A stretch of 64,000 nt of DNA from Liolophura sinensis (Eukaryota > Mollusca > Polyplacophora > Chitonida > Chitonidae): NCBI RefSeq assembly GCF_032854445.1, contig NC_088307.1, forward strand, positions 10,056,017 through 10,120,016, in the 5' to 3' direction. The position numbers were made by a program, and so were the translations under genes. This document shows, in pieces, positions 1 to 40,519 of this stretch. Every line of letters begins with the position of its first letter. Within the stretch, counting starts at the first letter, position 1. Under the pieces are notes generated by a model that was not told the origin of the DNA, searched no databases, and saw only the letters and a list, made by a program, of their open reading frames with translations.

Positions 1-34
1 CTTTTAACTACATAAAGGAAGTGTTTACCACACT

Positions 35-735: not shown

Positions 736-1199
736 GCGAAGGAAGTCAACCATCCACCGTCATCCAACGACGATGTTAAGGATGTCGGCAGTGCCATTCA
801 TCGAGAACAAAACATTGCCAGACAAGAAGAGCCAATCAGAGCAACGAAGGAAATGTAATACTACATACTGAAAACAACAGGTGCACTTCCTTTCATCGGG
901 ATCGAGATTATCCTCTCTCTCAAAACATGAGAATATACAAGGATCACCGTGCAACCCAAATCTGGATGCTCTCCCATAAGAGCGGTAAGCTGTGGCCACC
1001 AAACATTTAGCAATTATTTGTGAGCAGAGCATGGACAGTAAACCTGACCGTACGAAAGAAATCCTCTCAGCGGCCACATCAAGAATCGGCGCGACGTCGA
1101 AAGAATCCCTGGGAAACCGAACTAAACTTTGGAAGGCAGGGAGAGAGATGTTGGGAAAGTCAGACCAAGACCTCCTCCTCTTTACTAGAAGGTCAGTCA

Positions 1200-1625
1200 T
1201 GAAAAGGGATTCGACGGCCCGGGCGGCACGCACGAAAGAAGGGGTGACACGGCCCGGGCGGTCCCCGACGAAAGAAAAAGTGCGGCGGCCCCTAAGGCCC
1301 GGACAAAAGAAGGGGGTCCGGCGGCCCCGAAAGCCCGGACGAAAGCAAAGGTCCGGCGGCCTGGACGGCCCGGACGAAAGAAAAGGTGCAGCGGCCCCAA
1401 AGGCCCGGACGAACGAAGGGGGTCAGGCTGCCACGAAGGCTCGGACGAAAGAAGGGGTCCGGCGAGAAAAGCAGGGGTTCCGCGGCCTGGACAGCCTGGA
1501 CGAAACAAGGGGTTCGTCTGCCTGGACAGATGAAGGGGTCTGTCGGCCCGAACTGAAGAATGAGTCCGTCGGCCCGGGCGGATGAAGAGGTCCGTCGGCC
1601 CGGACGGCCCGGGCGGATGTAGGGG
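1200..1625 (+). repeat. GC-rich degenerate tandem array (plus orientation)
   Basis: Tandem units of roughly 24-30 bases built on CGGCCCGGACGAAAGAAGGGG. The same array appears in reverse orientation at 17860-18460 and 19640-19845. The high GC content contrasts with the AT-rich surroundings. All frames stay largely open and would give Arg/Pro/Gly-rich peptides, so the long frames here are a by-product of the repeat rather than a gene. Confidence 0.85.
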
Positions 1626-1734
1626 CCCGGAATGTCCTAAGACAATACTGGAATCTTATTCTGAACAAACCCCAAAGGTGTATCCAGATTATTCCACCGG
1701 CAGGGGAAAACGTCAAAGTAATATTACATTACCT

Positions 1735-2410
1735 AACTCTTAATTCTTGTCTCCGTAAAATTCATTTCCTCTTAAGCGTCGACACTTGATGATGGAATTT
1801 ACACTGGTACAAACAAATCAAAAAGAATCCCAAAACACTGAATTTGACCATTAGGTCGTTACGGATTATAACACAAACTGACGTCAATCATTACAGTTCA
1901 GCTCAGCTCAGCTTTCAAACTATCTTGAATTCGGCGTAAAACACCAATCATATCAAACTATTGACATGTACTATGGAATATCAGACCTGGGTCCGGGTGA
2001 AACAAAAAAAATAAACACAGAGAAAAACAAACTGGAGTTACCTGGAGTCTTACCCGCAAAATTACCCATGTCTGTCAATGCAACAATCAATGTAACAAGT
2101 TTTCACAACCGTTGTAAGCTCAGTCCTGTCTGTTCTGTGTCTCCACTTACATTTATCTAACTTCTATAAAGGCTGTCATATAATCAGACTGCCACACGGT
2201 CACATTATCAGTGAGGTCACTCCATCTATCAGGTGCTTTCGCAGGAAATTTCGCGGAATATTGGTCTCGATGCAATGTTGCAGAAATAGGTCACCTCCAG
2301 GTCAGTTTTTACACCAACTGACATATATTTATTTGGCTGCTCTAGACTGTAGTGTAAACACGAAACACGTAAAAATGACGCGAATTAACGCCATTGGAAG
2401 GTTACTGTAT
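1735..2410 (-). repeat. Z-Y module, minus copy
   Basis: In reverse complement this matches about 10100-10805 almost end to end: the AATATATGTCAGTT block, the block around GGACTGAGCTTACAACGG, AACTCCAGTTTGTTTTT, the repeated GAGCTGAGCTGAGCTG and a segment near GTCGACGCTTAAG. It also carries a short SINE-tail segment (about 1922-1955) that is shared with 14610-14650. It lies directly inside module X and the GC array. That order is mirrored at 14.2-20.6 kb, which suggests a terminal repeat of a DNA transposon. Confidence 0.75.
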
Positions 2411-2734
2411 TTAATCTATATAGATTTACAATATTACATTTAAATTTACTTAGCATATAGCTTGGCAATATATGGAAAAACAATTTCTTGTGTAGTTCAA
2501 ATCCATCTCTCTTTCCTTTACCTCACTTTGTTCAGCACTAAAAATGTATGTAATTAAAGGAATCGAACTCGTGTTCCCATTCGACACAAGGGTATATACG
2601 CAGACAATGCATTAAAAGCAGTAGTATATGCAATAGAGATTCTGGGCCACCCTTCCCAGGGAACCTCCCCTCGGCAAATAGAGGCCCCCTGCCTCATTTC
2701 GTGAAAGATATACTTAGTCGTACTTAATAATTTT

Positions 2735-3055
2735 TCAGTCATATGACGACAAAGGAGTCTGGATGTAATTTGGAGTGCACGTAATTTGCCTTCTTGTTGC
2801 AGGACGGATTTGCGCCGCTCTTTTATCTAGTGCCGCTTCACTGAGACGACGTACCGAAGGCAAGTAAGCTGCCCCGCCCGAGCCACTATACTGATACAGG
2901 TCAACCAGCCGTTGCACTATCCCCTTCATTCTGAACGCTAAGCGAGGAAGCTAAAATTTCCTATTTTGGGGTCTAAGGTGTGACCCGACCCAGGATTGAC
3001 CCTGGATCTACAGCCTCCAAAGCGGGTGCTCTACCATCTGAGCTAACGGGGCTGG
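2735..3055 (-). repeat. tRNA-derived SINE, family 2, minus strand
   Basis: In reverse complement the head reads CCCCGTTAGCTCAGATGGTA (A-box-like) followed by a GGGTCAATCCTGGG B-box-like stretch. The body is shared with 4732-4960. The tail TTAAGTACGAC is shared with the SINE fragments at 50425-50600 and 23345-23470. It is pol III-type SINE structure, not a functional tRNA, because the body continues far past the tRNA-like part. Confidence 0.75.
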
Positions 3056-3384
3056 AAACAACAACATGAAAACAACGAAAAGGAACCAGATCTCGGGATA
3101 CTTACAGGTATATCTACATGGCTAAAGCCCCACGCCTGTATTGAAAAAAAAAATGCGAGATAAGAGTTTCTGTGATAAGCGAATGTGTGAAGAAAAATAA
3201 ACTTACAGAAAAATAATTGAAACCAAATTTGGATGGAGAAATGGGAGAAAAACGAAGTTAAATTCCCATGTTGTATAATATGTCTCCTCCAAGTTCCAAG
3301 TTTTTTCCTTCTTTCTTTCTTTGCCTTCTGGTGTTTATTTATGCCAATAGTGAAGCCATTAATGACGTCTTCGATATGTCTACT

Positions 3385-3515
3385 CACAAGAACATGCGTG
3401 TTGGTCTGATCATAAGAACGTGCGCGTTGGTCTTATCATAAGAACATGCGTGTTGGTCTGCTCATAAGAACATGCGCGTTGGCCTGCTCATAAGAACATG
3501 CGCGTTGGTCTGCTC
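3385..3515. repeat. 26-bp minisatellite interrupted by a SINE
   Basis: Five or so units of a 26-base repeat containing AAGAACATGCGCGTTGGTCT. A final unit resumes at about 3719-3750, after the SINE at 3523-3718, so the SINE jumped into a pre-existing array. Confidence 0.8.
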
Positions 3516-3522
3516 ATGAGAA

Positions 3523-3718
3523 CCTCCGTGGCTCAGTTGGTTAGCGCGCTAGCGCAGCGTAATGACTCTCTCACCAATGCGGTCTCTGTGAGTTCAATTC
3601 CAGCTCATCCTGGCTTCCTCTCCGGCCGTACATGGGAAGGTCTTCCAGCAACCTGAAGTGAAGTGAAATATTCTTGAGTACGGCGTAAAACACCAATCAA
3701 ATACATAAATAAATAAAT
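3523..3718 (+). repeat. tRNA-derived SINE, family 1, full length
   Basis: Head CCTCCGTGGCTCAGTTGGTT is A-box-like and GAGTTCAATTCC is B-box-like. The tail is GAGTACGGCGTAAAACACC followed by AAATA repeats. A 10-base duplication flanks it: CTCATGAGAA at 3513-3522 and CTCATGAAAA at 3719-3728, differing by one base. This is the clearest insertion of the family in the window. Confidence 0.88.
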
Positions 3719-8755: not shown

Positions 8756-9655
8756 TCAAAACTATATGTGGCATGGTTAAAAATCATAGCAAACCAATCA
8801 GAATGATGATTTCTCAATGGTTATTATACAAGTCGGGGAAAAGTGCAAGCTATCAACATCTTCCAATATGCGGCATCAAAGGCGATTGTTATTTTTTTTT
8901 TTGTTTTCGTTTTTTTTTCTTTTTCCATTACGCCTTGCGTAAGGTATATTCACTCAGTTCTGCTTTAATGAAAGATTTTTTTTGCTATCGGGGTCATAGT
9001 CTTTTGCTATGTCGTTGAAACACACCGGATCTTTACATTATTGGTATGTCATGCTTCACAGAGCTCATCACTTTAAGCTTCGTGCGTACGCTTGACCTAT
9101 TAATTCTATATCTAATGCTATATAAAAGAATCACTTGTGTAACTTTGATATTAGTGTTATAAATATTTTTTTTTCAGGAATTTTTTCTTGTATGGCTTGT
9201 ATGGCTCCGTATTTTCGCATATCGAACCTATTGCCCTGTTGACATGCGTAGTAATTCTATTAATTCAACATAAAAATTCCATTAAACTAACGGGATATTA
9301 CGTTGTATATGACAGAATATTGTGTTATAATAAAACAGAATACATTCTAGCATCAGTCAAACAACACACTTTCTGTTAAAAATTAACTGATTAATTGTTT
9401 TTCTTGTTTCAGTGTATAGCGCCATCTTGCCCTTTGGTATGGATACATGTATGTAGGCCTGCATGTAGGCCCTATATGTATCCACATCCACGCGTGACCT
9501 CCGCGTTCGTTTACACACCGCATGTGTAATATATAGTGCCAGGAATTTTCGGCATAAAACTGAATTAATTTTTTTATCTCACTCACTGGTGTTTACATTC
9601 CTTATTATATACTATATAATATATTCATGTAGCAACCAAACTATACACAATAAGG

Positions 9656-10085
9656 ACTTATGTGATAATTGTGTTTAGTGTAGGTATGTTACAATTTCTA
9701 ATACAATTTTCTTTTTCCATTATTCTGCATTAATTCGGAAATATACATTTAAGTACATCTTAACTCATTTAAGAACTAACAATCTTAAATGTCACAAAAT
9801 GTGAACCAACAATGATCCAATATATTACTTAGAACCAACATTAAGCAATGGTATTTACTTGGTCGATAAAAAAGGTAAAAGGAGTGTTCCAAATTAAAAC
9901 ACAACGTTATGGTTTAGGTATTAACATACAAGTCCGCTGCAAACTGTGTTCTGGGTCACAACTTCCTCTATCTCTAAATGAAGGGAAGTGAAAGGGTTAA
10001 AGACACCAAAATTCAACACTGGTGCGTAAAAACACTTTTATTTCTTTTTTTATTTTTTATTTTTAGATTTTTGTAAGAGTGTTGA
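9656..10085 (+). repeat. About 430-bp dispersed repeat, copy 1
   Basis: Nearly identical, in the same orientation, to 44590-45010. Both run from GATAATTGTGTTTAGTGTAG to TTTAGATTTTTGTAAGAGTG. Here it abuts module Z. At the other site it continues into a foldback structure. It is AT-rich and non-coding, most likely a non-autonomous DNA element. Confidence 0.85.
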
Positions 10086-11055
10086 GAGCACCACTTTCAC
10101 TTTCACTGACGTTAAGTGGAAGATTTGCTTAGTGATTTTTCCGTGTTTAAAACAAACATACATTCCAGGCTATAGCAACCACATAAATATATGTCAGTTA
10201 CTGTGTACACTGCCCTGGAGGTGACCTATTTCTGCAACGTTGAATAGGAAACATAAAGTACTTTGTTTCTAACACCTTGCAGGAGGCCTGTTGCTCAGAA
10301 ACCGACATTCCGAGGAATTTTCTGCGAAAGGCCATGACAGACGTAGTGACGTCACTGAAAATGTGACTACGGTGTGTCTGATTATATCAGGGCGTTTCTG
10401 AGAGTTAGACAAATGTAAGTGCAGACACTGAACAGATAGGACTGAGCTTACAACGGCAGTGAAAACTTGTTACAAGGATTGTAAGATTGACAAATTATGG
10501 GTAACTCTGCAGGTGAGACAACTCCAGTTTGTTTTTTCTCTGTGCTTAATTTTTTTTTTATTTTGCCCAGACTCAAAACTGCTTTTGAAAGCTAATTTCA
10601 AATTTGAAAGCTGAGCTGAGCTGAGCTGAGCTGTACTGACTGATGTCAGTTTGTGTTATAATCCGTAACAAATTAATGGTCAAATTCAGTGTATCTGAAT
10701 TGTTTTTGATACGTTTGTTCGAGTGTAAATTCCATCATCAAGTGTCGACGCTAAAGTAGAAATGAATTTTATCGAGACAAGAATTAAGAGTTCTCTAGAC
10801 TTAAGCACCATGCTAAAAATACATATGGCTTGCCAGACAAGCCGTAGAATTCTTATAAATTAGAAATAACATTATTTACTGGTAACTGGTTTGGCTACAT
10901 ACAATAGGCCTATATATTATATACACAATATTTACTTTAAGCCTTTACGTTTTAAACATTAGATATTGTTAAAAGAATTAACTGAGAAAAATCCTCTTTT
11001 TATCACAATATTCAAGAAATCATTTTGACACCCTCTTCCGGTTACGTTTTGTCAA
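10085..11055 (+). repeat. Z-Y module, plus copy 1
   Basis: Matches 14160-15080 in direct orientation over most of its length and 1735-2410 in inverted orientation. Landmarks are GACGTTAAGTGGAAGATTTG, the pair CTTGCAGGAGGCCTG and CCGAGGAATTTTCTGCG, the GAGCTGAGCTGAGCTG run and CACCCTCTTCC at the end. The distal end overlaps the last codons of the THAP relic on the other strand, so the THAP gene may belong to the same element. Confidence 0.82.
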
Positions 11056-11381
11056 ATCTTCTGTGGGGTGCGTTGAAAGGACGAATAGGTTGATTTCGTT
11101 GTTGTTTCGATGACAAAGGACTTGACATCTCAACTGCCAGGGGAATGTCCGGCACAGCGCCTGTTATTAGCCATGCTACTGCATTTTCATAGCCCAAGCT
11201 TGCCAACTTCTCTGTCTCGATCACACATGCATTAGGAGAAATGCCTGCTGCACAGTTTATGGTGGTACTTGAGATCGAACTTCTTCCTCGTGGCAGGGTC
11301 CTTTGGAAAGGCAAAGAAAGAAATTCCACCTCCCTCGACCAGCTGACTACTGCACCCGTAATCTACGCATATCACAGGCAT
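11042..11381 (-). pseudogene. THAP-domain protein relic
   Basis: Reading on the minus strand from an ATG at 11381, the frame gives MPVICVDYGCSSQ, then ISFFAFPKD, then KLCSRHF. These are the opening Cys pair, the hydrophobic core and the closing Cys-His of a THAP (C2CH zinc finger) DNA-binding domain. About 25 residues expected between RKK and the CSRHF part are missing and a stop follows. A second frame continues with TEKLASLGYEN and GAVPDIPL, the latter resembling the conserved AVPTIF box downstream of THAP zinc ligands. THAP domains occur in P-element-type transposases and in host regulators. No catalytic domain is visible here. The deletion and frame change make it a pseudogene. Confidence 0.7.
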
Positions 11382-11639
11382 GACTATCTCTCAAGAATTT
11401 GTCAAACAACGGCAAATTCGGGTCGAAATGACTGTTTACAGCTTTCTACTATGACTTATACACGTATCGAGCTAGCGCCTCCTTACGGTGACGTCACGGA
11501 CTCGTCAGCCTCGCTTTGAAATTCAAAATGTGCATATTTAGCCAAGTGGTCTTCTTCGCCGGCTGCTCGCAAAACGACTACACCCAGGCCGTGGTTGGTT
11601 GAAGGGGCCCAAATACTTTCAATATGAACTTTTAAAACA

Positions 11640-13080
11640 ATCTGGAGGCACAAAATATAGAAATTCTTGACAGTATTCCTTTAACAAAGTGAAGTAATTG
11701 AGAAGGAGGTGGATTTGAACTACACAAGAAATTCCTTTTTCACATATTGTCAAGCTATTTGTTAAGTAAGTTTAAATGTACTATTATAAATCTATATACA
11801 TTAGACATTAGACGGAAAAGGATATTATCCTGCAGGGGCGTAGGCTGGTGGGGAGGGGAGGGGGGGGGGGCAGTGCAGGGGTGTTCCGCTCAAGTGGACG
11901 AAAAAAATATTTTAACCTATATCTCTTACCTAGCTATTAACATTCATTCCACAGATATTTGTTGTAGCCTATATAGACCTATATTTCAATTTTGTACCGA
12001 TTTACTAAATAGTATATTGGCCTATTTAGACTGTCATGTGCCTATGTTCTGTCATGTGAACCATTCCATATTGTTCCCGGTGGAAGACGACGTGTTTTAC
12101 AAAATCACCTCTCTAGTACCGCGCAAGCAGCAGTAGCCATTTCCGTCTGGTGGACAAGGCAGATGCCGCAGTTTTACTGGTACTGTTTGTAACACTAGAG
12201 CCCATGACAATAAATATCATTTTGTCAGGGACAGCCTGGTTTCAACCCAACCTAAGCTGAACTTGAGTTGTGGTTGTTTTTTTTTTTTTTGATTATGTGA
12301 AAATGAATGTATACACATTGGCCAAATCTGCATTCGAAACACTTCGAAATCACTCAGATTCTCTCTCCGGCATTCTAATAACCTGAAGCTTTCGGGCCCT
12401 AGGCGGTTCCTGGACCCTCGCCTAACAGACTGCGATGGTCGTTCCGCTCTCGTGAAATCCGACCCCGGTGACGATCCACCCTACGCACCTGTCCTGTGCC
12501 TTTAACGTTATACAGTAGGCTGCTGGTCATTAACGAATATTTTAGCGCGGCCTATTCCACCGGATACACCTATTACATAACAGGTTCAAGGGCGCACTAG
12601 GGAAGCCCTCGCGTCATTTCGTAGACGATCTGTCACTGTGAGCAGACTGGCAATCGATCTGAGCCACCTACAGACGATTTCCCATTGAGTTGCAAAGGGT
12701 TATTTATTTCAGACAAAAATATTTCGGTGTTAAGCATCCCCGAGACATTTTGATAATTCACATTCTCACAATAGATGCGCAGGAGCGACACATTTTCAGT
12801 TTTGTCTTTTGGCGTGCGATAAGGAAAGAGAAAACATTCTACTACTTCCAAATGATAGTCAAAAACAGCAACAGCTGTGCTATCTGTACAGACAACTCGC
12901 TTTACCAGTGACAATGTTGAGTGCTGTGTGAGTCAGGAATGCGAGCTGCTCTAACCGAACACACGTACTCAGTACGATCCAGCAAGAACGAAAGCTAAAG
13001 TGTGAAGCGACCGTTTAACGGAAACATGGCTGTATATATTTGCCTCTTATATACACAGGTATCATATAACTATGTCACAA
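11640..13080. other. No recognised gene
   Basis: Short frames on both strands (for example minus 12914-12633) have no domain I recognise. A G-run lies at 11855-11870. No RNA gene was seen. Confidence 0.45.
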
Positions 13081-14159: not shown

Positions 14160-15080
14160 TCCACTCTGCAGCACCACTATCACTTTCATTGACGTTAAGT
14201 GGAAGATTTGCTTAGTGATTTTTCCGTGTTTACAACAAAACATACTTTCCAGGCTATAGCAACCACATAAATATATGTCAGTTACTGTGTACACTGCCTG
14301 TCTGCAACGTTTAATAGGAAACAGAAAGTACTTTGTTTCTAACATCTTGCAGGAGGCCTGTTGCTCAGAAACCGACATTCCGAGGAATTTTCTGCGAAAG
14401 GCCATGATATACGTAGTGACGTCACTGAAAAATGTGACTACGGTGTGTCTGATTATATCAGGGCGTTTCTGAGAGTTAGACAAATGTAAGTGACCTAAAC
14501 TGACCTAAAACTGCTGGCATAAAGGGTACCAAAATAAAAAAAAAATAAAAAAAAATAAAACATGCACAAAAAATAACCTGGTAGGTCTCTTTTTTTATAG
14601 TACATGTAAATAGTTTGATATGATTGGTGTTTTACGCCGAATTCAAGATAATTTGAAAGCTGAGCTGAGCTGAGCTGTACTGATTGGCGTCAGTTTGTGT
14701 TATAATCCGTAACGACCTAATGGTCAAATTCAGTGTTTCTGAATTGTTTTTGATACGTTTGTTCGAGTGTAAATTCCATCATCAAAATAGAAATGAATTT
14801 TATCGAGACAAGAATTAAGAGTTCTCTAGACTTAAGCACCATGCTAAAAATACATATGGCTTGCCAGACAAGCCGCAGAATTCTCAGTAATTAGAAATAA
14901 CATTGTTTACTGGTAACTGGTTTGGCTACATACAATAGGCCTATATATTATATACACAATATTTGCTTTATGCCTTTCCGTTTTAAACATTAGTTATTGT
15001 TAAAAGAATTAACTGAGAAAAATTCTCTTTTTATCACGATATTCAAGAAATCATTTTGACACCCTCTTCCTGTTATGTTT
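14160..15080 (+). repeat. Z-Y module, plus copy 2
   Basis: Direct repeat of 10085-11055. Near-identical stretches run from GCACCACTATCACTTTCATT to the CACCCTCTTCCTGTTATGTTTTG end. It includes the SINE-tail segment (14612-14650) and the GAGCTGAGCTGAGCTG run. It lies immediately upstream of the Mutator-like transposase. With the inverted partial copy at 20430-20590 it could form the ends of that element. Confidence 0.82.
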
Positions 15081-15232
15081 TGTCAAAGCTTCAAAGAAAT
15101 CAGTAATAAAAAAGTGTGCCATGCTAGTATAAAAGTTAATTGTCAGTAATAAAATATGTATCTCAGTTGCATTTGATTGTTATAGTGCCCCCTCGCCCAC
15201 TTTTCATTTGCTTCCTACGCCTATGAACAGGC

Positions 15233-16661
15233 ATGTCTCTCCTTCGGAGACCTGGCCCAAAAGCTGCGGTGGTGAACCGAGCTCTTCAAGTAGGCCTCCA
15301 GGACACACCAATGGGGAACACCCGAGCCAGACTCCTGTTTGCAAACCATGTCGCATCTGCAATCACAAAGCTGAACCGAGAGGATATGGCAAATAAGGTG
15401 GAAGAGGTAAAGGCATACAAAAGGCAAAGAGGAGAGGATGACAGCACAATGGATCTGGCCTCAGATGCTCGCTACAACAGCATTAATATAACCAGCCCCA
15501 AGAAACCAGGCCAGAATGCTTCACAGGCCATTTCCCTGGATGTGGAGACATCAACAGACAAGCAATACATTGTCCCCGCTGATATGAAGAATAAAGTGTG
15601 TTGGACTAGGTCCTGGCTGAGAGGGAAAGGCTTCCAAGTAAAGTGCCCTGGAGGACACGAGGGGTGCACGGAGAACACAAACCCACATGCCCCCTGATCC
15701 GAGTATAATATGGGGAACGAGATTGGCGAGGGATTGGCGAGGCAAGGTGTTTTAGCCAAGCACGTAACCACGGACGACGACTTCACGTCAGCCAAGGGAA
15801 TGGAAAACGGCATCCGACTGGTCGAGCCACTGTGGGAGACGGTTAGCAGATGCCACTCACCTAGGCAGATCCCAGTTCAAGTAAAGCAACCAGGCTAAGT
15901 TCCGCGATGCCATGTTCGAGGGACAGGGCCGAACGAGGGAAGCCAGGAAGAAAGCTCAGAAGGTGTTGAGCCAGGATGTTAAGGCCAGGTGTAGCTTGAT
16001 TTTTTCTCAACTTATGTCTGAGCACAGTGGTGACATGAGGAAAATAAAAACTTACCTACCCAAGGTTAAGGATGCAACGGTCAGGTGTTACGGTGGGGAC
16101 TATTCCAACTTCCGCAGGAAGAGTGTGGTTTGCTCCGCAGGAGAAACCAGCAGCTGGTTGGGAGAGGCAGTGAACTCTGCCCTTTCAACATGGATGCGAG
16201 CGACAGGAAACTATTGACCGAAGTACTGCACATGAAGTTGGGCGAGACAGCCGTCGCCAGTCTCCGGATGAACACCTCAAAAGTGCGAAGCTGTCAACAG
16301 GCCACTCAGTGTCTCCTTTCACAGGAATGTTAACTACAGCAGAAATATGGAGGGAAGGGCGGCGTCCACATTCCACAGACTTAAGAATGGCCAGGACAAA
16401 TCCACTGCTGCCAAACTCGGAGCTGTCGGTGCCATTGTTTCACCTAGGAGCGAGAAAACGGCACAACAGATTGAAAGGGTGTAGCAGTACTACAAGGTTT
16501 ATAAGAAGCAAAAGACAGTTAAGGGGAGATCACTCCGCAATACAGCCAGAAAACTCCAAGGGCACAATCAGTATATTTCAAATCCAGAAGAGAAAACTGA
16601 CTATGCCAAGGGACAACTGGACAACACCCCAACAGATCACACATGCGCTAGATATTTGTAA
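15233..16661 (+). pseudogene. Mutator-like transposase (decayed)
   Basis: Conceptual translation across several frames follows the animal protein family annotated as Mutator-like transposase domain proteins. Blocks in order are NTRARLLFANHV near the start, ARYNSI, the pair GQNASQAIS and KQYIVPADMKNKVC, SWLRGKGFQVKCPGGHEGCT (a Cys/His pattern typical of the family), HVTTDDDFTSAKGM, RKKAQKVLSQDVKARC, KIKTYLPKVKDATVRCYGGD, VVCSAGETSSW and LLTEVLHMKLGETAVASLRM. Family members would be expected to cut and paste DNA between long terminal inverted repeats. At least four frame changes (near 15690, 15890, 16100 and 16280) show it is dead. It is intronless, follows the Z-Y module, and ends about 140 bases from a convergent nuclease relic. 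Family assignment is by remembered motifs. Confidence 0.75.
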
Positions 16662-16799
16662 CCGCCAGTTTTGGTATATAATTTGTCAGTGCTGTTGTCG
16701 GTTATGAAAGAAATTTATAAATAAATACAGAAATTGAGCAAAACCTGACACATCTGTTTGTTTATTATTTTTAATGAGGGGAAACCAACCTGCTCAGTT

Positions 16800-17161
16800 T
16801 TAAATGCAGCATGCACCTTGCATACTGCCCACGGCCGAGACAGTGCCATGGCTGTAGCAGCGCTGCCTGTTATTGTTAATACCATGCGGTTCCCAGCTTA
16901 TGTGGTCCACATTTACACAGCGTGTGTTGTGGCACACGTGTGAGCAATCAAAATTGGGATCTAAATATAACACTCCCTGCCTGGCCATATAAACAAGTCT
17001 ACCAATGTGTTTTTTATTCCATCGGTGTGTGAGGAGGCGAGGCCACATCGGCCATCCCTCGTCAATGGTCCAGTCCACAGTCGACAGGCTCCGTTTTTGC
17101 TATAAACACTGAAACTTTTAATTTTTGCAGCAATTTCTGCTCTGAACGTCTCCATTTCCAA
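16800..17161 (-). pseudogene. His-Me finger (I-PpoI-like) nuclease relic
   Basis: Two overlapping minus frames together give the zinc-binding loop region typical of I-PpoI-type homing endonuclease relatives. CRLWTGPLTRDGR lies in the first frame (17161-16961). The second (17078-16800) gives GRLVYMARQG, then CSHVCHNTRCVNVDHISWEP, then NNNRQRC. The CSH..CH...C...H pattern supplies the zinc ligands and catalytic His expected of the fold, and the NNxRxRC end is characteristic. One frameshift between the halves makes it a pseudogene or a sequencing-error casualty. About 120 residues is a normal size for stand-alone members. It is convergent with the Mutator-like transposase and probably part of the same mobile element. 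Its role there is unknown. Confidence 0.72.
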
Positions 17162-17384
17162 GCGTAGGAATACTAGAACGCTGCATGTTGTTCATTTCAG
17201 AATGCCTATACACGTTACCCTACACTAAACAGCACTTTACCTATTTTTCATCAAAATGGATATTTTCAGAAAATAAATAGCTCCAGGAAGCTATAAAATG
17301 ACTCAATCAATGCAAAACACATCCCAGACATACCCACCAAAATTATCAGGTTGCTGCGAAATCTGAGCGCACTTTACATATTTT

Positions 17385-17712
17385 GGTGACTGTTAGTGCA
17401 GGCCATTAATTTTCCATAAGCTACAATGTTAACGTCTAGCGCTGTAGCTCAGTCCCAAACATTCCGTGGCCAATAAGCTTTGGTGCATACCTGGCCCAGC
17501 CTGTAAGAAACAAGCCATAAAAATCTTGACATGTTGACCGTCAAAATCTGGACGTTTCCATGCGGCAGCAGGGAGGCGTGCCTAGCATCACCAAGGGGAC
17601 GTCACTCGCAGCCTCATCACTACCTCACACCTTGTGTCCTCTCGTCCAGAATTTCAAACTTTCATCAATAAAGCTCATACCTCCTTTAAGTTTAGACAGT
17701 TTCCAGCATTTT
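17385..17712 (+). repeat. About 310-bp dispersed repeat, copy 1
   Basis: Direct match to 28135-28445. Shared landmarks are CCAATAAGCTTTGGTGCATA, GCAGCCTCATCAC and CTTGTGTCCTCTCG. On the minus strand part of it is open (FWxRGHK motif in both copies), but one copy has a stop, so I do not call a gene. Confidence 0.8.
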
Positions 17713-17859
17713 AATACCACGCATGCACCTGTACACCAAAAATGGCCGCCTGGGAGCAAAAAAAGACTTTATACCCTAAAATACACAGAATTACATCCCT
17801 ACCGAAAAACGAAAGTTGTAAAGGGGGTCTGTGACCACATATACTCTGACATTTTTGGT

Positions 17860-18460
17860 ACGGACCGCCGGACCCCTTCTCCCTCCGGGCCTCCAAACCC
17901 GTTCTTGCGTCCGGGCCGCCGGACCCCCTCTTCCGTCCAGGCCTCCGGATGCCTTCTTCCGCCTGGGCCGCCAGACCTCTTCTTTTCGTCCTGGCCCCTT
18001 CGTCCGTCCGGACCCCTTCGCCCGTCCGGGCCCCTTTGTCCCCATTTTTTCCGTTCGGTCCGTCCAGGCCGCTGGACCCCTTCTTCCGTCCGGTCCGCCA
18101 GACCCCTTCTTTCGTCCTGGCCCCTTCGTCCGTCCGGGCCATGCGGGTCGCTGGACCTCTTCGTCAGTCCAGGTTGTCAAGGTCACCGCACCCCTTCTTT
18201 TGTCCGGGCCACGGGACTCCCTTCTTCCGTCCCGCGCCGTCCGACCCCTTCTTTCGTCCGAGCCCCCCTCCTCCGTCCGAGCCCCTTCTTCCGTCAGGGC
18301 TGTCCGGGCCGCTGGACCCCTTCGTCTGTCCGGGCCGTCCTGGTCTCTGGACTCTTTCGTCTGTCCGGACCGTCTGGACCGTCTGGGGCGGCGGACCTCT
18401 TTGTCCGTTCGGGCCGTCCGGGCCGCCGGACCCATTCTTCCGACCGCCCGTCTGGGTATC
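17860..18460 (-). repeat. GC-rich degenerate tandem array (minus orientation)
   Basis: The same array as 1200-1625 in reverse orientation, about 600 bases, units with CCGGACCCCTTCTTCCGTCC. Long open frames on both strands (Pro/Ser/Phe-rich or Arg/Gly-rich) follow from the repeat and are not genes. Confidence 0.88.
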
Positions 18461-18494
18461 CATGTCTGGTACCGAATTGTATCAGCGTAAAAAG

Positions 18495-18790
18495 TTATTT
18501 CGATTCTTTTTAGATGCTGTTTTTAGTAGCCGTTTTCTGGTTTCTTGTATAGTCCACTTGTTACGGTAAAAACTACACAGAAAGGCCTGCAGTTTTGTTA
18601 ACAAAACGTTTACTAAACATTACCAGCAAACACCGTTTATACAGCACATATCACAGTAACAACACAACGTACATGTACAGATAGTACCAGTTAGCAGTCC
18701 GTGTAAGAGTACATTGTGAAGTTCTCAACGGTCCGTGAGAGCCATGGGGAAGGATCCAACAAAGTGTAGTCCACGAAAGCTGTGATGCAA
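18495..18790 (-). repeat. Module X, partial minus copy
   Basis: Reverse complement of part of 300-720, with CGGTCCGTGAGAGCCATGGG and ACGTACATGTACAGATAGTA. It runs into the expanded 45-bp array. A second, longer copy follows at 19850-20400. Confidence 0.8.
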
Positions 18791-19072
18791 CTGTTTAGCA
18801 CAAACCCTCAGATATCCACGAAATCCTTGATGCAACTGTTTAGTACAAACCCTCAGATCTCCACGAAATCCTTAATGCAACTGTTCAGCACAAACCCTCA
18901 GTTATCCACAAAATCCTTGATGCAACTGTTCAGCACAAACCCTCAGATATCTACGAAATCCTTGATGCAACTGTTCAGCACAAACCCTCAGATATCCACG
19001 AAATCCTTAATGCAACTGTTCAGCACAAACCCTCAGATATCCACGAAATCCTTGATGCAACTGTTCAGTGCG
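18781..19072. repeat. 45-bp minisatellite
   Basis: Six to seven nearly identical 45-base units containing GATGCAACTGTTCAGCACAA and CTCAGATATCCACGAAATCC. Because 45 is a multiple of three, the plus strand stays open with a repeated 15-residue peptide (MQLFSTNPQISTKSL). There is no other sign that it is translated. The counterpart at 186-300 has only about three units. Confidence 0.92.
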
Positions 19073-19075
19073 ATA

Positions 19076-19252
19076 ATAATCCAGGAGCCTCTCACCAATG
19101 CGGTCGCTGTGAGTTCAAGTCCAGGTCATGGTGGCTTCCTTTCCGGCCGTACGTGGGAAGCTCTGTCTTCATCGTCGGGCTTCCCCGTGCTCTGCTCGGT
19201 TTCCTCCCACCGTAATGCAGGCCGCTGTCGTTTTAGCCTTCTCGGTCAGGGC
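19076..19252 (+). repeat. SINE family 1, tail missing
   Basis: Carries the CTCACCAATGCGGTCGCTGT segment and CGGTTTCCTCCCACC, but stops before the GAGTACGGCG tail and runs into the repeat at 19250-19560. Confidence 0.8.
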
Positions 19253-19545
19253 AATGTTCGTTGAGTCGTGTTTTATCAGCCCTGCTCGTCTTCATCCTGC
19301 ATGGATGTAAGCATTTCGCCTAGCTGGCAGTTCTTCCGGGAAGTTACCGAACATAGCAGAACCTTCTCATTAATAACAGACTCTTTCATTCAGATTTTGG
19401 GAAGATATTTTCGTAACAAATCTGACTTTGCTTAGGGAATATAATGCAAAGTCACAACATTTTTCTCTAAGCAATGACTCTCCTCAGGCGTTTTTTTCTT
19501 TTGCCAGCTCACCCTGACAAAATCCGTAGGTATCCACGAAATCCG
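19250..19545 (+). repeat. About 290-bp repeat, copy 1
   Basis: Nearly identical to 24288-24578, from TTTTAGCCTTCTCGGTCAGG to CCAGCTCACCCTGACAA. In both places a SINE lies just upstream. Confidence 0.88.
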
Positions 19546-19639
19546 TGATTCAGCTCTTTGCTAGTTCTGTTCATTACCGTTGTAGAAAAGATGAGTAGAA
19601 GAAGGAGGAAGGCTGAATAGTACATGTGTAACAGTAAGA

Positions 19640-19845
19640 GTATCCGCCGGATCCTTTATTCCGTCCGGGTCGTCCAGGCCACCGGACGCCTTCTTCCGAC
19701 CTGGCCGTCCGGGCCTCCGTAACCCTTCTTCCGACCTGGCCGTCCAGGGCCGGCGGACCCCATCCTCCGCCGGGTCCCTTCGTCCGTCCAGGCCGTCCGG
19801 GCCGCCGGACCCCTTCTTCCGACCTCCCGTTTGGGTGTCCAAGTC
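19640..19845 (-). repeat. GC-rich array, short minus copy
   Basis: About 200 bases of the CCGGACCCCTTCTTCCGACC-type repeat, directly followed by a full module X copy, as on the left side of the window. Confidence 0.85.
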
Positions 19846-19849
19846 TGGT

Positions 19850-20400
19850 ATCGAATGTATCAGCGTAAAAAGCTATTTTGATTTGTCCTGGGTGCAGAAT
19901 GTGTAGACTTGACGCGAGAAGAGTCTGGGATCTTTTAACACACAGCTTTCAAACTCTCTTAAAATTTGGTTCAGCGTCGCTTGAGTGTTGTGTTTCGTAC
20001 GCCGGCAATTCGGAGTACAAAGGGGAGTAGCTAATTTTTTGGTTTCCTGTATAGCCCACTTGTTACGGTAAAAATGAAACAGAAATGCACGAACATTTAC
20101 TAAACATTTCAGCAAACACCGTTTATACAGCCATATCACAGTAACAACACAACGTACATGTACAGATAGTACCAGTTAGCAGTCCGTGTAAGAGTAACAT
20201 TGTGAAGTTCTCAACGGTCCGTGAGAGCCATGGGAAAGGATTCGACAAAGTGTACAGTTCACTAAAGCTGTGATGCAACTGTTCAGTACATCATCACCCT
20301 CGATATGGACAGAGAAGACGTTCAAGTCCACACAAGGCTAAAGTACACTCCGCACACCCCACAGAGCCACTAACAACACCCTCTTATGTCTTCACGCACA
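19850..20400 (-). repeat. Module X, long minus copy
   Basis: Reverse complement matches 35-735 with moderate divergence and without the 45-bp expansion. It includes the CCGGCAATTCGGAGTAC landmark and a block near TTCACGCACAAAAGT at the end. Confidence 0.82.
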
Positions 20401-20429
20401 AAAGTCTGGTGAATACCTATGCTATTCCT

Positions 20430-20590
20430 GTCCCGATAAAATTCATTTCTGCTTAAGCGTCGACTCCTGATGATGGAATTTGCGGAGGTGTAAACACACC
20501 CAATAGGTCTCCGAACTGTAACATAAGCCGACAACAGTCATTGCAGCTGAGCTTTCAAACTACTTACTATGAAATATTAGGCATGGGATT
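20430..20590 (-). repeat. Y module, partial minus copy
   Basis: Reverse complement of the Y part of the Z-Y module: AAAATTCATTTCTGCTTAAG, CGTCGACTCCTGATGATGGA, then GCTGAGCTTTCAAACTA. The Z part is absent. This is the inverted partner of 14645-14830. Confidence 0.7.
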
Positions 20591-20984
20591 AAAATAGACG
20601 TCTGTCTTAATCTCAGATAACACCTACGAGCAGTGTCGGGTCTGATCGATCGGGACATGGAGTGGTGTATTAAGGATAGTTTTATACACACATACACACA
20701 TTCGTTCGACTTCAATGGTTTTAGGGGCTGGGTTATTGTTGAAATATGGTTTACCGATGCTGACTTTGACATATTTACATGTTTCAGGGAATTTGTGCAT
20801 TCTAAATATAGGGTAGGGTTCGAGCTGTGGAGGGTGATGGGTGATGGGGGGATGGGGGAGGGGGTGATGGGGATGCTGCAGCTATTTCTTTTCCCATTGT
20901 TTACAAGCAACTGTGTAGCGGAAGCTGTGTCTCGATTTGTCTGTGGGTCAGTTGATCGACTAAATTGTTCATATTCTTTTTTAG

Positions 20985-21030: not shown

Positions 21031-24000
21031 GTAAGTATTTTTTAGCGAGCAACCTGGTACTTCTATATATGTCATTCGTTTTGTTTGTTTTTTATGAGGG
21101 GGGGGGGGGCGGGAGATTTTTGACAGCATGTGTTTTAACATGGTCATGCTATCCTTACACCTCTCCTAAACGAAGTTAGAAAGGGGGTATAATGGAATCA
21201 CCGCATTTGTCCATCTGATAGTAGGTGCGATTTTTTCAATGCATCTCCTCCCAATCCACAGCACCGAATGTGATGGTGTTAAGGTTGTCTTTCCTTTGTT
21301 TCTGTAAATGTTGGTGGATGAAAAGGGGGTATATTCGGACATCAGGATTCTAGTTCAGCATGAGAGCTCTGAGAGCAAGGCGAAACAAACCCTATACTGG
21401 CGGATTTCCGCTTTTTTCTTTTTCTTTTTTGTTTCGGTTTCTTTGGAGGCCAATTGTATAGCAACAATCTTTGAAACCGCTACTGCAATAACCAATGCCA
21501 CCTCCTCCGACACGTCCAAATTCACAGCCAACGCCACTTCCATTGCAAGTGTTACTGCCAGTTGTATATTCACGGCCACGGCCACTTCTACCGCCACAGC
21601 CTTCGCCACCCCTACTGCCACCATACCTATCGCCACACGATGCACATCATCACCCGCACCGCCTCTTTCATCTCCACCGCGATATCTACCATCTCCATCA
21701 CCGCCACTTCCACTTCCACCTCCACCTCCATCGCAATCGCTACCGCCACTTTCACCATCACCTTCAATACCATCGCTATTTTCACCTCCACCACTTGCAA
21801 TGCCACCGACGCCGTCACCTCCAGCGCCACTGCCTCCATTACTTTTACGTGCTGATCTTGACGTCCTGCTTCAGTGAAAATGTTCATTAATGAATCACAA
21901 ATTCATACCAGGCATAAAAACATTATACAAATATATATTTTGGTGGCGTATACAGAAGTTTTGTGTATGCTTTGAACATGGGCCGAATTTAGTCGAAGTC
22001 ACCTGTAGAGCGTGATGTGGATCGCGTTGTGTCACAAGTAGACAGCTCATCCGAGTCTACATCCCTTCGCCATCTAAAATGGATCATGTAGTAGTGATAT
22101 CTATAAATTTTTGCTCGCCTTATGTATAACTCGCATTATGTGACAACAAATACCATTTAACCTATGATAATCCATTCCCTCTCCAATTGTTTTCCATGTG
22201 CAGTTTTAATTTATTGGTGGATGTGATGATGTGTCGTGTCGATAACTCCGACTGTCTTCCACGTACATGTAGAGTTTTAATTTTGGTGGATACACAGATG
22301 ACAATGTAACTCACATTTGCCCATTTCTGCGTTTACCATGGTAACCAGATTGCTATTCCCCTTATATCTGCTAGATGCATGTAAACAGACAAGCATGAAC
22401 TTCGTGTACAGGCGACAACTCAAATTGTTGTCCACGTTCTATTTTATTTCTTGGTTGATACTTAGACGGAGGTGACGATGTACCGGGAGTCACATTAGTT
22501 CATTTTCACGGTTGTCATGGAAACCAGTTTGCCATCATATATATATACTACATAAATACATATGATTTTGAGTCCGGGCTACAACTCCAATTATTTTCCA
22601 TGTGCAGTTTTAAGTTTTGGTGGCTATACAGATACAGATGTGACGATGTGTCGCCCTTCACATTTGTCCAGTTTTATACGTCCGCTCCTAATAGGCAGAG
22701 AGGATTATGGTAAAAGTAATTTTGTGCGTCTGTTCTTCCATATTCATGACCGGACTATATCTCCAGTTGTCTTCCTTGTGCAGTTTTAACTTTTGGTGCA
22801 TAGGTAGATACAGATGTGATGATGTTTTATGTACGGTATACCTTTCAGTTTACTGTTTTTATTTAATACATAAAAAATCATCAACACCTGTCAAGTATTT
22901 TCCCTCAGAGTTTATTGTCATCACAATGGTACTGGTATTCTTTTATACGTTTGAAACAAATGTATTTGTTCGGACGTATAATGTGTTCACCTGAACTCTT
23001 GTTTTTAAATGGCTTGTAAATTTGCTGGATACGGACTTAAAATAAGATATAAAAGACTTCCTGTATGGCATAAAGACAATTCATTTCAGGTACTCCACGA
23101 CCCCCAACTCCTCCACCCAAGTTGATAGATTCCTGGCGAGATGTAGACTGGAATACGCTGTAAGTCTCAAAGTCGTGTAATACGCCATTCATGGTATTCA
23201 TGTATGTGTGTGTGTGTGCGTGTGCGTGCGTGCGTGCGTTGCGTGCGTTGCGTGCGTTGCGTGCGAGTACATGAGTGCGTGTGCATGAGTGCGTGTATGT
23301 ATGTTTGCCTCGGGGTTTTGTGTCATACTTAACAATTTTCATTCATTCGAGTGAGTGAGTAAGTGTTTGGGGTTTAACGTCGTACTTAACAATTTTTCAG
23401 TCATAACGACAAAGGAATCCTTAGAGTGCATGCAATGTGCCTCCTTGTTGCAGAACGGATATCCTCATTCATATGATGACGAGGAGTCTTTATGTGTGTC
23501 CATATAAGTACATGAAGTCACCGAGACATGCAAATCCGAGAATCAATACCAGTACCGATCAAAAAAAAAACATCGATGACGTGTTTGGACGATCGGGAAA
23601 GACGTGTGAGCGTCTGTGATGTTATAGTTATGTGGATATATGTACATGTGTGCGTGTATATTGTTTACGTGGTACTAGTAGTCATTTCTGTATGAGGACT
23701 GCGGAGCCTCCGTGGCTCATTTGGTTAGCGCGCTAATAATCCAGGAGCCTCTCACCAATGCGGTCGCTGTGAGTTCAAGTCCAGCTCATGGTGGCTTCCT
23801 TTCCGGCCGTACGTGGGAAGCTCTGTCTTCATCGTGGGGTTTCCCCGTGCTCTGCTCGGTTTCCTCCCACCATAATGCTGGCCGCCGTCGTATAAGTGAA
23901 AGAGTACAGCGTAAAACACCAAATAAATAAATAAACAAATAACAATAAACACCCACATGCGTATAACATTAAAGTGAGCACATAGTCAGCCACTAAACCT

Positions 24001-27000
24001 GAATTAATTGATAAAGTAGTATTCCAGAAATGTTCTAAATATATTGTGAAAATTCTACACCGTTTATCAAAAAATGTAAATGGCACACGATCGTCAGTCC
24101 GTAGCCACTCATTTGGTGACGCCATCTTGCCATGTTATAGCAATATAGAGTGATGTCACAAACCCTGGGAGCTCTTCTGTACCATCGGTATTAAGCAATG
24201 TGACAGTAAGAAAATACAAACCAAGATACCTGATACCCAACCAAAGAGTGTCAGCTCTGTTCCGTGTTCAAAGGGCCGATGTTTCTTTTAGCCTTCTCGG
24301 TCAGGGCAATGTTCGTTGAGTCGTGTTTTATTAGCCCTGCTCGTCTTCACCCTGCATGGATGTAAGCATTTCGCCTAGCTGGCAGTTCTTCCGGGAAGTT
24401 ACCGAACATAGCAGAACCTTCTCATTAATAACAGACTCTTTCATTCAGATTTTGGGAAGATATTTTCGTAACAAATCTGACTTTGCTTAGGTAATATAAT
24501 GCAAAGTCACAATATTTTTCTCCAAGCAATGACTCTCCTCAGGCGTTTTTTCTTTTGCCAGCTCACCCTGACAAGTTACTGCAGTATCCTGCCCAACATT
24601 TACACATTGTGACACGGGCAGCCGTTCTCAGTTCCATGCTTATAATTGTTTAGTTCAAAATACATCAGTTTAACACTTGAACTAGCCGCAAAATCCAACT
24701 TATTGCATCGATATCTCTCTATATCTCTCTTGTGATTGGCCAACTTCATAAGGGCTTCCACAACATGGCTACTCCAGTTGAATTGTCCATCAGTGCCATA
24801 TCCCGAAAACTGAACTTCATATTCTCCGCTTTCAAAACTTTATACATTTTTTTGTATATTTTTCCTACACCCCTACTACATTTTTTCTATGTATACATAG
24901 TTGCAGACTTTATGTTCACTTTAAAGATGTTCACCCCATCTTTTCCGATCATCCTAGCACTTGATCGATACTTTTTATTGATCGGAGGTATTGATTCTGG
25001 GCTTTGCAGGTCTTGGTGACTACTCATATATTGTGCCTGCTTATGCCAGGGCGAGTTCGTGCCGCTAAAATTCTAGGCCCACTTCTTTCTCTAATTTTTG
25101 TAAATATCATAAATGTGAATACTAGATGTGATATCAACATCTTTGCTGATGACGTTTTTATCCCAAGAGATTTTACTACAGCCTAAAATAAAATAAATCG
25201 CCACCTCGATCGTTATTCACATTGAGCAAACCAGTGGATGATAAAATTTAATGCAAAAATAAAAAAGTATACTCAATGGTCGTGGGTTTCCCCTGGGGTC
25301 TGCCCGGTTCCCTCCCACCATAATGCTGGCCGCCGTCTTATGAGCGAAATATTCTTGAGTACGGCGTAAAACACCAACCAAAATTTAATAAATATCACCT
25401 TTGAGACGTACCCAATGTACCAAAAACTGTATTTAGATGGTAATGAAGTGAGTGTTCAATCTCATACACATCTTGGTATCACTTTGCAACACAATAGTAG
25501 ATGGGACGAACATCACTTGTAAGATCACTTGTAAGATCACTTGTAAACAAATGCAATGAGAAATTGAAAATTGTTAATAGAGTAAAGAGAACATTGATTG
25601 TATAATAACATTATATAATAGTATGGTGATACTTTATATAACAAGTGAATATTCTTGAGTACGGCGTAAAACACCAATCAAATAAATAAATAAATATATA
25701 ACAACTGTAATATAGCGCTCTCTCAAAGGCCGAACAATATCCAACTTCGTGCAGCTTTGCTCTGTACAGGTGGACTTCGTCGAACATCAAACAAGGCTCT
25801 TCTTACTAAACTTAATTGGACACCACTGTATATTCGGCGTAGACAACACAGGATTGTACTGTTCTTTAAAAATGTAAATGGACTCTCTTCGGCTTATTTA
25901 CCATAAAGACCAATTACAGAAATCAGTGCATACATCTTGAGGCATAAAGAAAATTTACGCTTATTTAGATGTCGGCTCAGTTTCTATGAATCCTCAGTTT
26001 TTCCGAAAAGTACTCATGATTGGAATAATCTGAGTACATTCGTAATTCTTCCATTAAAGAACTTAAAACATTTATAACCCTACCAAGTTCTACTTCACAT
26101 GACTTATTATCCTTATATAATATCTTTAGCAGCTTTCCATCTGCTTTGCAGTGTGAGCGCTCTTCGAGCTGATCTCTTTAAACTCAACGTTGTTGAAGAT
26201 CCTACTTGCGCTTTTTGTAATGATCCGCAAGAAAATACTTATCATTATTTCTTGCATTGCCCTCAATTTGCCACACAATGGTAATGGTAATGTTAATGCT
26301 GAAATGGCCTACTAAATACATCTCACTCCATCATATATCTCTGTAAAGGCAGTTACGAACTAATTAAAAGTGGTTAACTGAAGTATATATCTGTGTTTTG
26401 GACGTGCAGTTGTTCCATCCATAACGTATTAGTACATTCATAACCATGCTTGAACATTTATAACTATGTCTGTGTCTGTATACATAATTTGCTTGCTGTC
26501 ATGTTGAGGAGACCTTCTTAGTGGCCGTTAGGCTGTAAGGAATCCTCTTTAAAGAAATAAAGAAATAAATAAAATAAAATAAAATAAAATTAAATTAAAT
26601 TAAATTAAATTAAATTAAATTAAATTAAATTAAATTAATTAAATTAAATTAAATTAAATTAAATTAAATTAAATTAAATTAAATTAAATTAAATTAGTGT
26701 TGCAAGCACTGAGGTACTAGTATCATGTCCAAGACACCAGACAAGACACTCAACCAAATCACATTATACAGTTTATAAGGTGCTTGACTAGGTGCGGTGA
26801 TATTTTCCCCGGTCTCTTCCAGTTAAAAATTTTACTGCCATCATGTCAATGAAATATCAATCAAACCATTCCCAAATGCTCTGTTTGACTTCTGTTTTTG
26901 AAGAGACGCACTAAAGAAGGATGTCCTGGGATATTCTACCGGGAAGGAAAACGCTCCGTTCGCGAATATCGTCATGTTTGGTCAAGTCGGTGCTGGGAAG

Positions 27001-30000
27001 TCCAGTTATTTCAATACCATTGACTCCATTTGTAAAGGGAGGTTTGCGGCACGCTTTGAAACTGGCGAAAGTAGAAGCAGCGTAACGAAATGGGTAATTT
27101 TTGTGTCTTAGCATTTAGCCATTGGGCAATGACCCAGGTGTCTCTCAGCAACGCGGTCACTGTCCAGCTCATGCTGCCTTCCTCTCCGGCCATACATTCT
27201 GCAAGCAATCTGAGACATGGATAAACGATACTTCCAAACTAAACTAAATTTTCTATTACTGTTTTACAGCACACTTAGAAAGGAACAGTTATAAATGCAC
27301 GACATGAATGAGCTGGAGTGGTTAAAAAATTAGAAGCATAGGTGTATTAGATACATTATTCACACGATCACAGACACTGCCTTCTGATTGGTGAAAAAAA
27401 TTTTTCGAAAGTATTTTCTGAATGTATTTTTCAAAATTCATTCTTAAGTAGGTAAAGTGAAGAATTATACTTTATGTTCGAGCTCCTTTTGCTTTCGATC
27501 TAATCAGTATATTTACACTAAATCTCACAGAAGATTAAATTTTAATTACCACAAGTAATTATGTCATTTTTTACTCATGTATATGATGATCAACATTTTC
27601 AGTGCCACAGAAATTATTTGCTGCAGAGCGGGTAGAAATAATGTAAAATGAAAGAGCATACGTCAAAGGCGAAAATGATTAAAATGTAGCTAACGATGAT
27701 AGTGTTTTCTGTTGCAAGTTCCGAAAAACACGTTTTGGAGGCAATAATGGCCCTGCATTCTACGTATGCGATACAATGGGAATGGAAGAGGACCAAGGTC
27801 TTGACGTCACAGACTTCCCTTTCATCCTAGACGGTCACCTCTCGGACAAATTTCAGGTGAGGTCAGAAAGTCCTGGTGAGGTTGGTAAGAGGTAAAGGAG
27901 AGGTGAGGTTAGGAGACAACATCTTCGTAAGTTCGAGGTGTTGAAGGCACCATTTGTGTCACTTCAGGGTGGGGTTGACAGAACATGAGGTTAGGTCAGA
28001 AGACATCTGTGTAAGTTTGGGGATGTTGGCAACATGGTGATGTAAGGCCTGAAATCAACATCCGTGTTAGCCCCGGGTGAGGTTGAGAGCAATGTGTCAG
28101 TTCCGGGTGAGATTGGCACAATGTGGCCACAGGACCCCCATTAGTTTTCCATAGGCGACAATGTTAACGTTTAGCGATGGTTAAAACATTCTGTGGCCAA
28201 TAAGCTTTGGTGCATACTTTGCCCAGCCTGTGAGAAAGCAGCCATAAAAATATTGACATAATGCTGGCCGTCAAAATCTGCATCTTTTTCTGCCGGTAGC
28301 TGGATGGGGTGCCTAGCAACCCCAAGGAGACGTTACTCGCAGCCTCATCACCACCTGTCTCCTTGTGTCCTCTCGCCCAGAATTTTAATCTTTCATCATT
28401 AAAACTCATACCTGCCCAAAGCTTAGACTTAGAAAGCTCCGGCTGAGTTTGGTAACGTGGAGAGGAGAGGTAAGGTAAAAACATTCCATGTGAAGTTGGT
28501 GGCATGGAGAGGAGAGGCGAGGTCAGAAAGTTACGGGTGATGTTGGTAGCAGGTTAAGGAGAGGTGAGGTCAGGAAGTTACGGGTGATGTTGGTAGCAGG
28601 TTAAGGAGAGGTGAGGTCAGAAGGTTACGGGTGATGTTGGTAGCAGGTTAAGGAGAGGTGAGGTCAGAAAGTTACGGGTGATGTTGGTAGCAGGTTAAGG
28701 AGAGGTGAGGTCAGAAAGTTACGGGTGATGTTGGTAACATGTGGAGAAAAAGTGGGGTTAGGAGACAACATCTGTGTGAGTTCCAGGTGAGGCTGACAGC
28801 AATGGTGGGACCAGAAGACAATATTTGTGACATTTCCGGCTGAGGTTAGCAGCAATGTGAGATGAGGCTAGAAGACAACATCTGTGTCAGTTCCGGGTGT
28901 GGTTGACAGTAATGTGACGAGAGGTCAGAAGAAACCTCTATGTCAGTTCCCGATGAGGTTGAGAGGTCCGAAGACATCTGTGTAAATTCTGGGGAAAATG
29001 TAACATGGCGATGTAAGGCCAGAGTCAACTACTGTATTACATCCGGGTAAGGTTGACAGCAGTGTGAGGCGAGGTCAGAGGTCAACATCTCTGTTAGTTC
29101 CGGGTGAGGTTAACGGTAATGTGAGGTGAGGTCAGAAACCACCATGTGTGTCAGTTCCAGACGAGGTTGAGGTGAGGTCAGAAGACATCCGTGTAAGTTC
29201 AGGGGAAATTGGTAACATGGCAATGTAGAGTCATATATCTACTTCTGTATTAGTTCTGGGTGAGTTGACAGCTGTGTGAGGTTAGGTGAGAAGCCAGCAT
29301 CTGTGTTAGTTCCGTGTGAGGTCGACAGTAATGTGAGGTGACGTCAGAAGTCAACACCTGTGTCAGTTCGGGTAGCGTTGACACAGTGTGAGGTAAGGTT
29401 AGAAGACATCTTTGTAGGTTCTGGAGAAATTGGTAACATGGCGATGCAAGGCCAGAAATCAACATCTGTGTTAGTTCAGGGTAAGGTTGACAGTAATGTG
29501 AAGTGATGAGTCAGCTTCTGTATTAGTTCAGGGTGAGGTTGACAGCTGTGTCAGGTGAGGTGTATTAGTTCTGGCTGAGGGTTGACAAGCCTGTGTGAAG
29601 CTGCACTTGCCGAAAACTAATGGACATTAAAACATATACATTCCTGCATGTACCTGTATGTGCAGGGGAACAAGAAAAAATCAGGTTAATGTACTAACTT
29701 TACAGTTTTATTTTTTTGAAGAGGCATAACTAATTTTCACTGTAAAATACCGGAACTTAGTAAAATGTATGAGTGTGTGTATCTACAGGTGATTGTAGTT
29801 CTTGTCCACTCTTGTCACTTTTGAAGTCTGAATTACTGGACCAAATACCAGAGTAAAAATTAAACTTCTGATAAAATGCCACAAATGTTAAGAATGAATG
29901 AATGATTATGGTTTAACGCCACATCGGCAGTATTTCAGCCATATCGTGGCGACAAATGTTAAGAAAAGTATACTACAGATTCAGTGTACATAAATATGAC

Positions 30001-40510: not shown

Positions 40511-40519
40511 TGGGCAAGC

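Follow-up and report, generated by a model that had tools for sequence, protein, structure and literature searches.

A decayed transposase and nuclease unit in the chiton Liolophura sinensis, very probably a KolobokP transposon, and its young nuclease-deleted relatives

Two decayed genes of the window

A stretch of 64,000 nucleotides from the chiton Liolophura sinensis (contig NC_088307.1, positions 10,056,017 to 10,120,016; C13:10056017-10120016 in the genome search), hereafter the window, carries the remains of two genes, one encoding a DDD/E transposase on the plus strand and the other an I-PpoI-like His-Me finger nuclease on the minus strand. The transposase remnant matches the Pfam family PF20700 (Mutator-like transposase) at 15230-15694 (E 1.2e-18), and a second match at 15885-16214 (E 4.3e-6) lies 0.1 bit below the Pfam cut-off. 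The nuclease remnant matches PF05551 (zf-His_Me_endon) at 17099-16803 of the minus strand (E 2e-9) and has I-PpoI as its top match among solved structures, with a marginal E of 0.005. Stops and frame changes are crossed when both are aligned to intact proteins encoded elsewhere in the genome: the transposase alignment begins only at residue 189, the first 188 of the 684 residues being absent, and that of the nuclease is scattered across three frames. A preliminary description of this DNA had proposed both decayed genes on these strands, and this holds with slightly shifted limits (15248-16661 instead of 15233-16661 for the transposase, 17155-16774 instead of 17161-16800 for the nuclease). The tail-to-tail arrangement that it reported also stands; the spacing, given there as about 140 bases, was measured as 112 between the 3' ends, versus 108 in the intact copy L026. 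No tblastn match to the transposase fragment was found in phage records.

Both genes are part of a longer element that is incomplete in the window. Relative to L010, a full-length copy, window positions 15248-17400 correspond to positions 1439-3685 of the internal region (INT; 88% identity) and 17403-17836 to positions 13-453 of a long terminal direct repeat (LTDR; 94% identity). The window copy lacks the left LTDR and internal positions 1-1438. The window copy diverges from the intact copies by 7.3-7.8% (mismatches only), compared with 0.24% and 0.49% within the young classes considered in the last section, and it therefore represents an older, dead insertion. Almost certainly, the window preserves a KolobokP DNA transposon that is dead and has lost its 5' part. 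The features are collected in Table 1.

Table 1. Features of the transposon remnant and of the Y repeat in the window
Feature	Position in the window	Strand	Evidence
5'-truncated remnant, almost certainly of KolobokP: 3' internal part and right LTDR	15248-17836	+	alignment to L010
Decayed DDD/E transposase (PF20700), residues 189-684 of the intact 684 aa	15248-16661	+	Pfam profile match, alignment to intact protein
Decayed I-PpoI-like nuclease; CSHVCHNTRC stretch still legible	16774-17155	-	Pfam, solved-structure match, alignment
Right LTDR, ending ...GGGGGTCTGTGACC	17401-17836	+	aligned from 17403; first two bases read from the sequence
3'-truncated solo LTDR fragment, same kind	28125-28428	+	84% to L010 LTDR positions 1-310
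Y repeat, outside the element; locally duplicated sequence	14170-15092	+	self-comparison, genome search, fetched loci
Inverted, decayed partial Y copy, outside the element	20402 to ~20617-20630	-	alignment versus shuffles
Further Y copies	10087-11061 and 2379-1735		self-comparison

Anatomy of the element across the genome

Searching the genome (609,464,459 bases in 632 contigs) for the transposase, with 40 of 253 candidates scored, produced 41 matches. Twenty regions (L009-L028) were fetched, as well as L029 and L030, which hold the remainder of one array. Besides the window's own match, these regions account for 24 of the 40 match rows; the other 16 rows represent 15 loci. Transposase and nuclease occur tail to tail at least once in all 20 fetched loci, with the nuclease gene located inside the direct repeats. 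The proposal that both genes form one mobile unit is thus borne out by the genomic copies. Seventeen loci are full monomers of 4581-4593 bases (~4.59 kb) that follow the plan LTDR-INT-LTDR; the remaining three are L022, whose right end was not found, L027, a partial dimer, and L028, part of a tetramer. The terminal repeats are direct. They measure 452-454 bp in the 17 monomers, 15 of which have 453 bp on either side, and the two repeats of one monomer are 99.1-100% identical in each case. The LTDR starts with GGCCTCGGACCCCCATTA and ends with TAATGGGGGTCTGTGTCC; 15 of 18 positions are inverted, which makes 18-bp imperfect inverted ends, and the terminal bases GG...CC satisfy the 5'-RR...YY-3' rule. 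The long inverted ends that had been expected are therefore replaced by direct repeats of about 453 bp, the inverted part being limited to these 18 bp.

The copy L026 encodes an intact transposase of 684 aa (PF20700, E 1.5e-76) and an intact nuclease of 127 aa (PF05551, E 6.8e-8). In this transposase, the motifs C-x14-C-x3-H-x3-C (a CCHC zinc finger), DPTH, CYGGDCSKCRRNSVVC and CEAVN can be recognized by eye, and their putative catalytic assignment was judged in the same way. The nuclease resembles I-PpoI and other His-Cys box homing endonucleases by an aligned His-Cys box stretch, with S, H, H, E and N positions likewise recognized by eye; it differs from them in being encoded by a DNA transposon and not by a group I intron, no Rfam family being matched in the element (L010 2050-6760, E up to 0.1, group I introns included).

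Of the 17 full monomers, 13 lie between exact 4-bp target duplications, and three of the four bases match at L010 and L019. The preliminary description had expected 8-10 bp. The same 4-bp duplications are found, exact, at five of six solo LTDRs, which were hand-picked among 40 listed of 2073 LTDR candidates, the sixth (L033) being without one in register. All three multimers with both ends read also have exact duplications: the tetramer (C9:31862897-31879877, AGGT), the dimer L037 (TGTT), one unit of which is internally deleted, and the partial dimer L027 (CAAT). Among these 21 exact duplications (the five cases without an exact one are omitted), A occupies position 1 in 16 and T position 4 in 17. 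The left flank of L009 shows AACT, which is its right-hand duplication, followed by 16 extra bases that end in AGTACA and resemble the internal region, before the LTDR; these extra bases may have been left behind by a unit that was lost.

Other arrangements of LTDRs and internal regions were seen in a survey of multimers, in which the positions of left junctions come from 100 listed of 173 places. The region C7:32930491-32964387 contains 11 exact left LTDR-INT junctions, ten of them ~2.9 kb apart and the last 7.8 kb further. Neither nuclease pattern (undeleted or deleted, see the last section) matched in this array, which is known from pattern matches and not from its sequence and resembles a large multimer built from a shortened, non-autonomous form. 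At C6:48425630-48426104, also known from its patterns and not from its sequence, an LTDR lies between two internal regions and neither nuclease pattern matched, and at C2:27105351-27108307 two left junctions are 2.9 kb apart; both places are probably further multimers. In the whole genome, 173 exact left LTDR-INT junctions were counted versus 57 exact right INT-LTDR junctions, which suggests that there are further shortened families with a common left end.

Relationship to KolobokP and to other known systems

The pairing of a transposase with a homing-type nuclease, which the preliminary description took to be undescribed, was published by Kojima and Bao in 2022 as KolobokP, a lineage of the Kolobok superfamily (Mobile DNA 13:24, PMC9587614). 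According to the main text of that paper, KolobokP elements have two terminal direct repeats of ~450 or 660 bp (LTDR-INT-LTDR), and each LTDR has its own inverted ends of up to 18 bp with 5'-RR...YY-3' termini. Their target duplications are 3-5 bp long. The direct strand encodes a DDD/E transposase with a CCHC zinc finger after the first D, and further downstream the complementary strand encodes an I-PpoI-like His-Me nuclease. They also occur as solo LTDRs and as (LTDR-INT)n-LTDR multimers. The chiton element shares the LTDR plan, the repeat length, the inverted ends, the RR...YY termini, the size of the duplications, the strands of the genes, the solo LTDRs and the multimers. It differs by its host, as the words 'chiton' and 'Polyplacophora' are absent from the main text of PMC9587614 (supplements not included), by the lean of its duplications towards A at position 1 and T at position 4, whereas that text reports no strong target preference, and by one young subfamily with a common 10-bp deletion in the nuclease that is older than its spread. 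Taken as a whole, these data assign the transposase-nuclease unit with great confidence to KolobokP and not to Mutator, the latter being the name of a Pfam domain.

Several points weigh against this assignment. Membership rests on architecture and motifs rather than on a tree or a direct comparison with reference sequences. The Pfam model that the transposase matches bears the name Mutator, which does not occur in the main text of PMC9587614. The 20 fetched loci are the top-scoring transposase matches and not a random sample, and among the 15 loci that were not fetched, the undeleted nuclease pattern lies nearby in 11 and neither pattern does in four, the sequence of which was not read. Finally, L009 and L023 have no target duplication at their ends.

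A non-autonomous long terminal repeat (LTR) retrotransposon that would have acquired a transposase and a nuclease gene could also have direct terminal repeats of ~450 bp, 4-bp target duplications and solo repeats. Against this, the repeats of the chiton element begin with GG and end with CC, their 18-bp ends being inverted at 15 positions, where LTR retrotransposons have TG...CA. When six more of the open reading frames (ORFs) listed for L010 were compared with Pfam, nothing passed the cut-off and no reverse transcriptase appeared. Nor was one present among the nine proteins scanned in all, which include some but not all L010 ORFs; a non-autonomous element could, however, do without this enzyme. 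Neither a polypurine tract nor a tRNA primer site was seen beside the repeats, by eye and not by program. Such an origin is very improbable.

The preliminary description placed both genes in a Mutator transposon (Mutator-like element, MULE) bounded by a repeat named Y, which lies on both sides of the genes in inverted orientation and would form its long terminal inverted repeats. The Mutator-like name that Pfam gives to the transposase domain points the same way. The C/DxxH motif is common to five superfamilies, MuDR and Kolobok among them (PMC9587614, main text). The Y copies are real. Aligned with the left copy, the right-hand one scores 97 (best of 20 shuffles, 73); with the copy at 10087 it scores 132 (best of 20 shuffles, 74), and with that at 1735 likewise 132, a comparison made without shuffles. 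Their role as ends of the unit did not survive the comparison with genomic copies: Y lies at the element ends in none of the 20 fetched loci, five of which hold Y matches of 40-98 bases elsewhere. The other Y copies of the window, at 10087-11061 and 2379-1735, adjoin neither gene, and nothing in the regions around them (9500-12500 and 1-3000) matches the element. When the genome was searched with 14160-14840 and all 24 candidates were scored, five matches of 125-681 bases were found, all inside the window; the other 21 matches are short pieces (34-94 bases), of which 17 fall at query positions 442-497. Common words are skipped in this search and the diverged right-hand copy is not among its matches, so that diverged Y copies elsewhere in the genome could have been missed. 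The chiton element has its own ends, with direct terminal repeats, an inverted part of ~18 bp only and 4-bp duplications. Target duplications of MULEs are usually 8-11 bp. A Mutator transposon ending in Y can hardly be defended.

The view that the nuclease is an independent homing element, inserted beside the transposon and paired with it by chance or secondarily, draws on the relationship to I-PpoI, which points to a group I intron origin of the nuclease (structure match; PMC9587614, main text), but each of the 20 loci has the two genes tail to tail at least once, the direct repeats enclosing the nuclease, and Rfam matched nothing in L010 2050-6760 at E up to 0.1, so that this view has next to no credibility. 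A group I intron around the nuclease was rejected on the same Rfam result.

In the self-comparison, parts of window positions 21-2379 repeat parts of 14170-20416 in inverted orientation, and both regions contain Y, a GC-rich minisatellite and a 45-bp tandem repeat. They would be the arms of a local inverted duplication, only one of which carries the KolobokP remnant. The window also holds repeats of other kinds. One repeat, present with its neighbour at 19067-19520 and 23727-24574 (95-98% identity), is inserted in a 45-bp tandem array and is presumably a tRNA-like short interspersed element (SINE). Two pairs of dispersed repeats (9650-10088 and 44577-45017; 58217-58482 and 62968-63233) are 97% identical, and four long minisatellite arrays occupy 35483-37331, 38719-40513, 46759-48013 and 51496-52467, with units of ~28, 44, 41 and 49 bp.

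A young lineage with a deleted nuclease

Twelve of the 20 loci (L009-L020) have in common a 10-bp deletion in the nuclease gene, located between two ACA repeats. The deleted gene is an 81-aa frame without the His-Cys box, and no PF05551 match was obtained with that of L010, the one deleted copy tested. The transposase frame of these loci is open over 684 aa in 11 and over 612 aa in L020. Mean divergence, counted as mismatches only, is 0.24% in the deleted class (66 pairs) versus 0.49% in the undeleted class (10 pairs). Exact target duplications flank nine of the 12 deleted loci and comprise eight different sequences. Since the deletion is common to 12 loci that diverge so little and have distinct target duplications, it predates their spread. 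The deleted pattern matches the genome exactly at 11 places, L009 being added with one variant base, and the undeleted one at 56; the latter are places of a 24-base pattern, the window remnant included, and do not amount to a count of intact genes.

According to the main text of PMC9587614, most KolobokP families carry the nuclease at the same place, and whether those without it merely decayed after insertion is left undecided. In the chiton, it is likely that a recent burst of KolobokP came from a lineage in which the 10-bp deletion, which would remove the catalytic histidine, had disabled the nuclease beforehand. Transposition would then require the transposase only, and the nuclease would have another role, such as rebuilding tandem arrays, or would come from other copies; supply of the nuclease to the deleted lineage by other copies is possible. 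Multimers were found in three of 52 undeleted clusters (two by distance clustering, plus L027) versus none of the 12 deleted loci, all read as monomers, and these counts decide nothing either way (Fisher p = 1.0). The three multimers are a lower bound, as not all of the 52 clusters were read. Should the C7 array lack a nuclease gene, it would argue that the nuclease is not required in cis.

The models of Kojima and Bao (PMC9587614, main text) offer, by analogy, catalytic roles for both proteins and a cause for the multimers, and the movement of the chiton element can be pictured as follows. Most likely, the DDD/E transposase would act at the 18-bp imperfect inverted ends of each ~453-bp direct repeat and would move either the whole unit or a lone repeat. 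The unit would be joined to a target cut with a 4-bp stagger, giving rise to the 4-bp duplications. Recombination between direct repeats, possibly provoked by the nuclease, would generate solo repeats and tandem multimers.

The claim of a new class of transposon is thus removed, the pairing of transposase and nuclease being that of the already published KolobokP, and a chiton is added to the hosts in which KolobokP has been seen. The purpose of the nuclease is a question on which the authors of KolobokP could only propose models. Twelve young copies without a working nuclease, next to 56 undeleted places in one and the same genome, constitute a natural experiment on this purpose.

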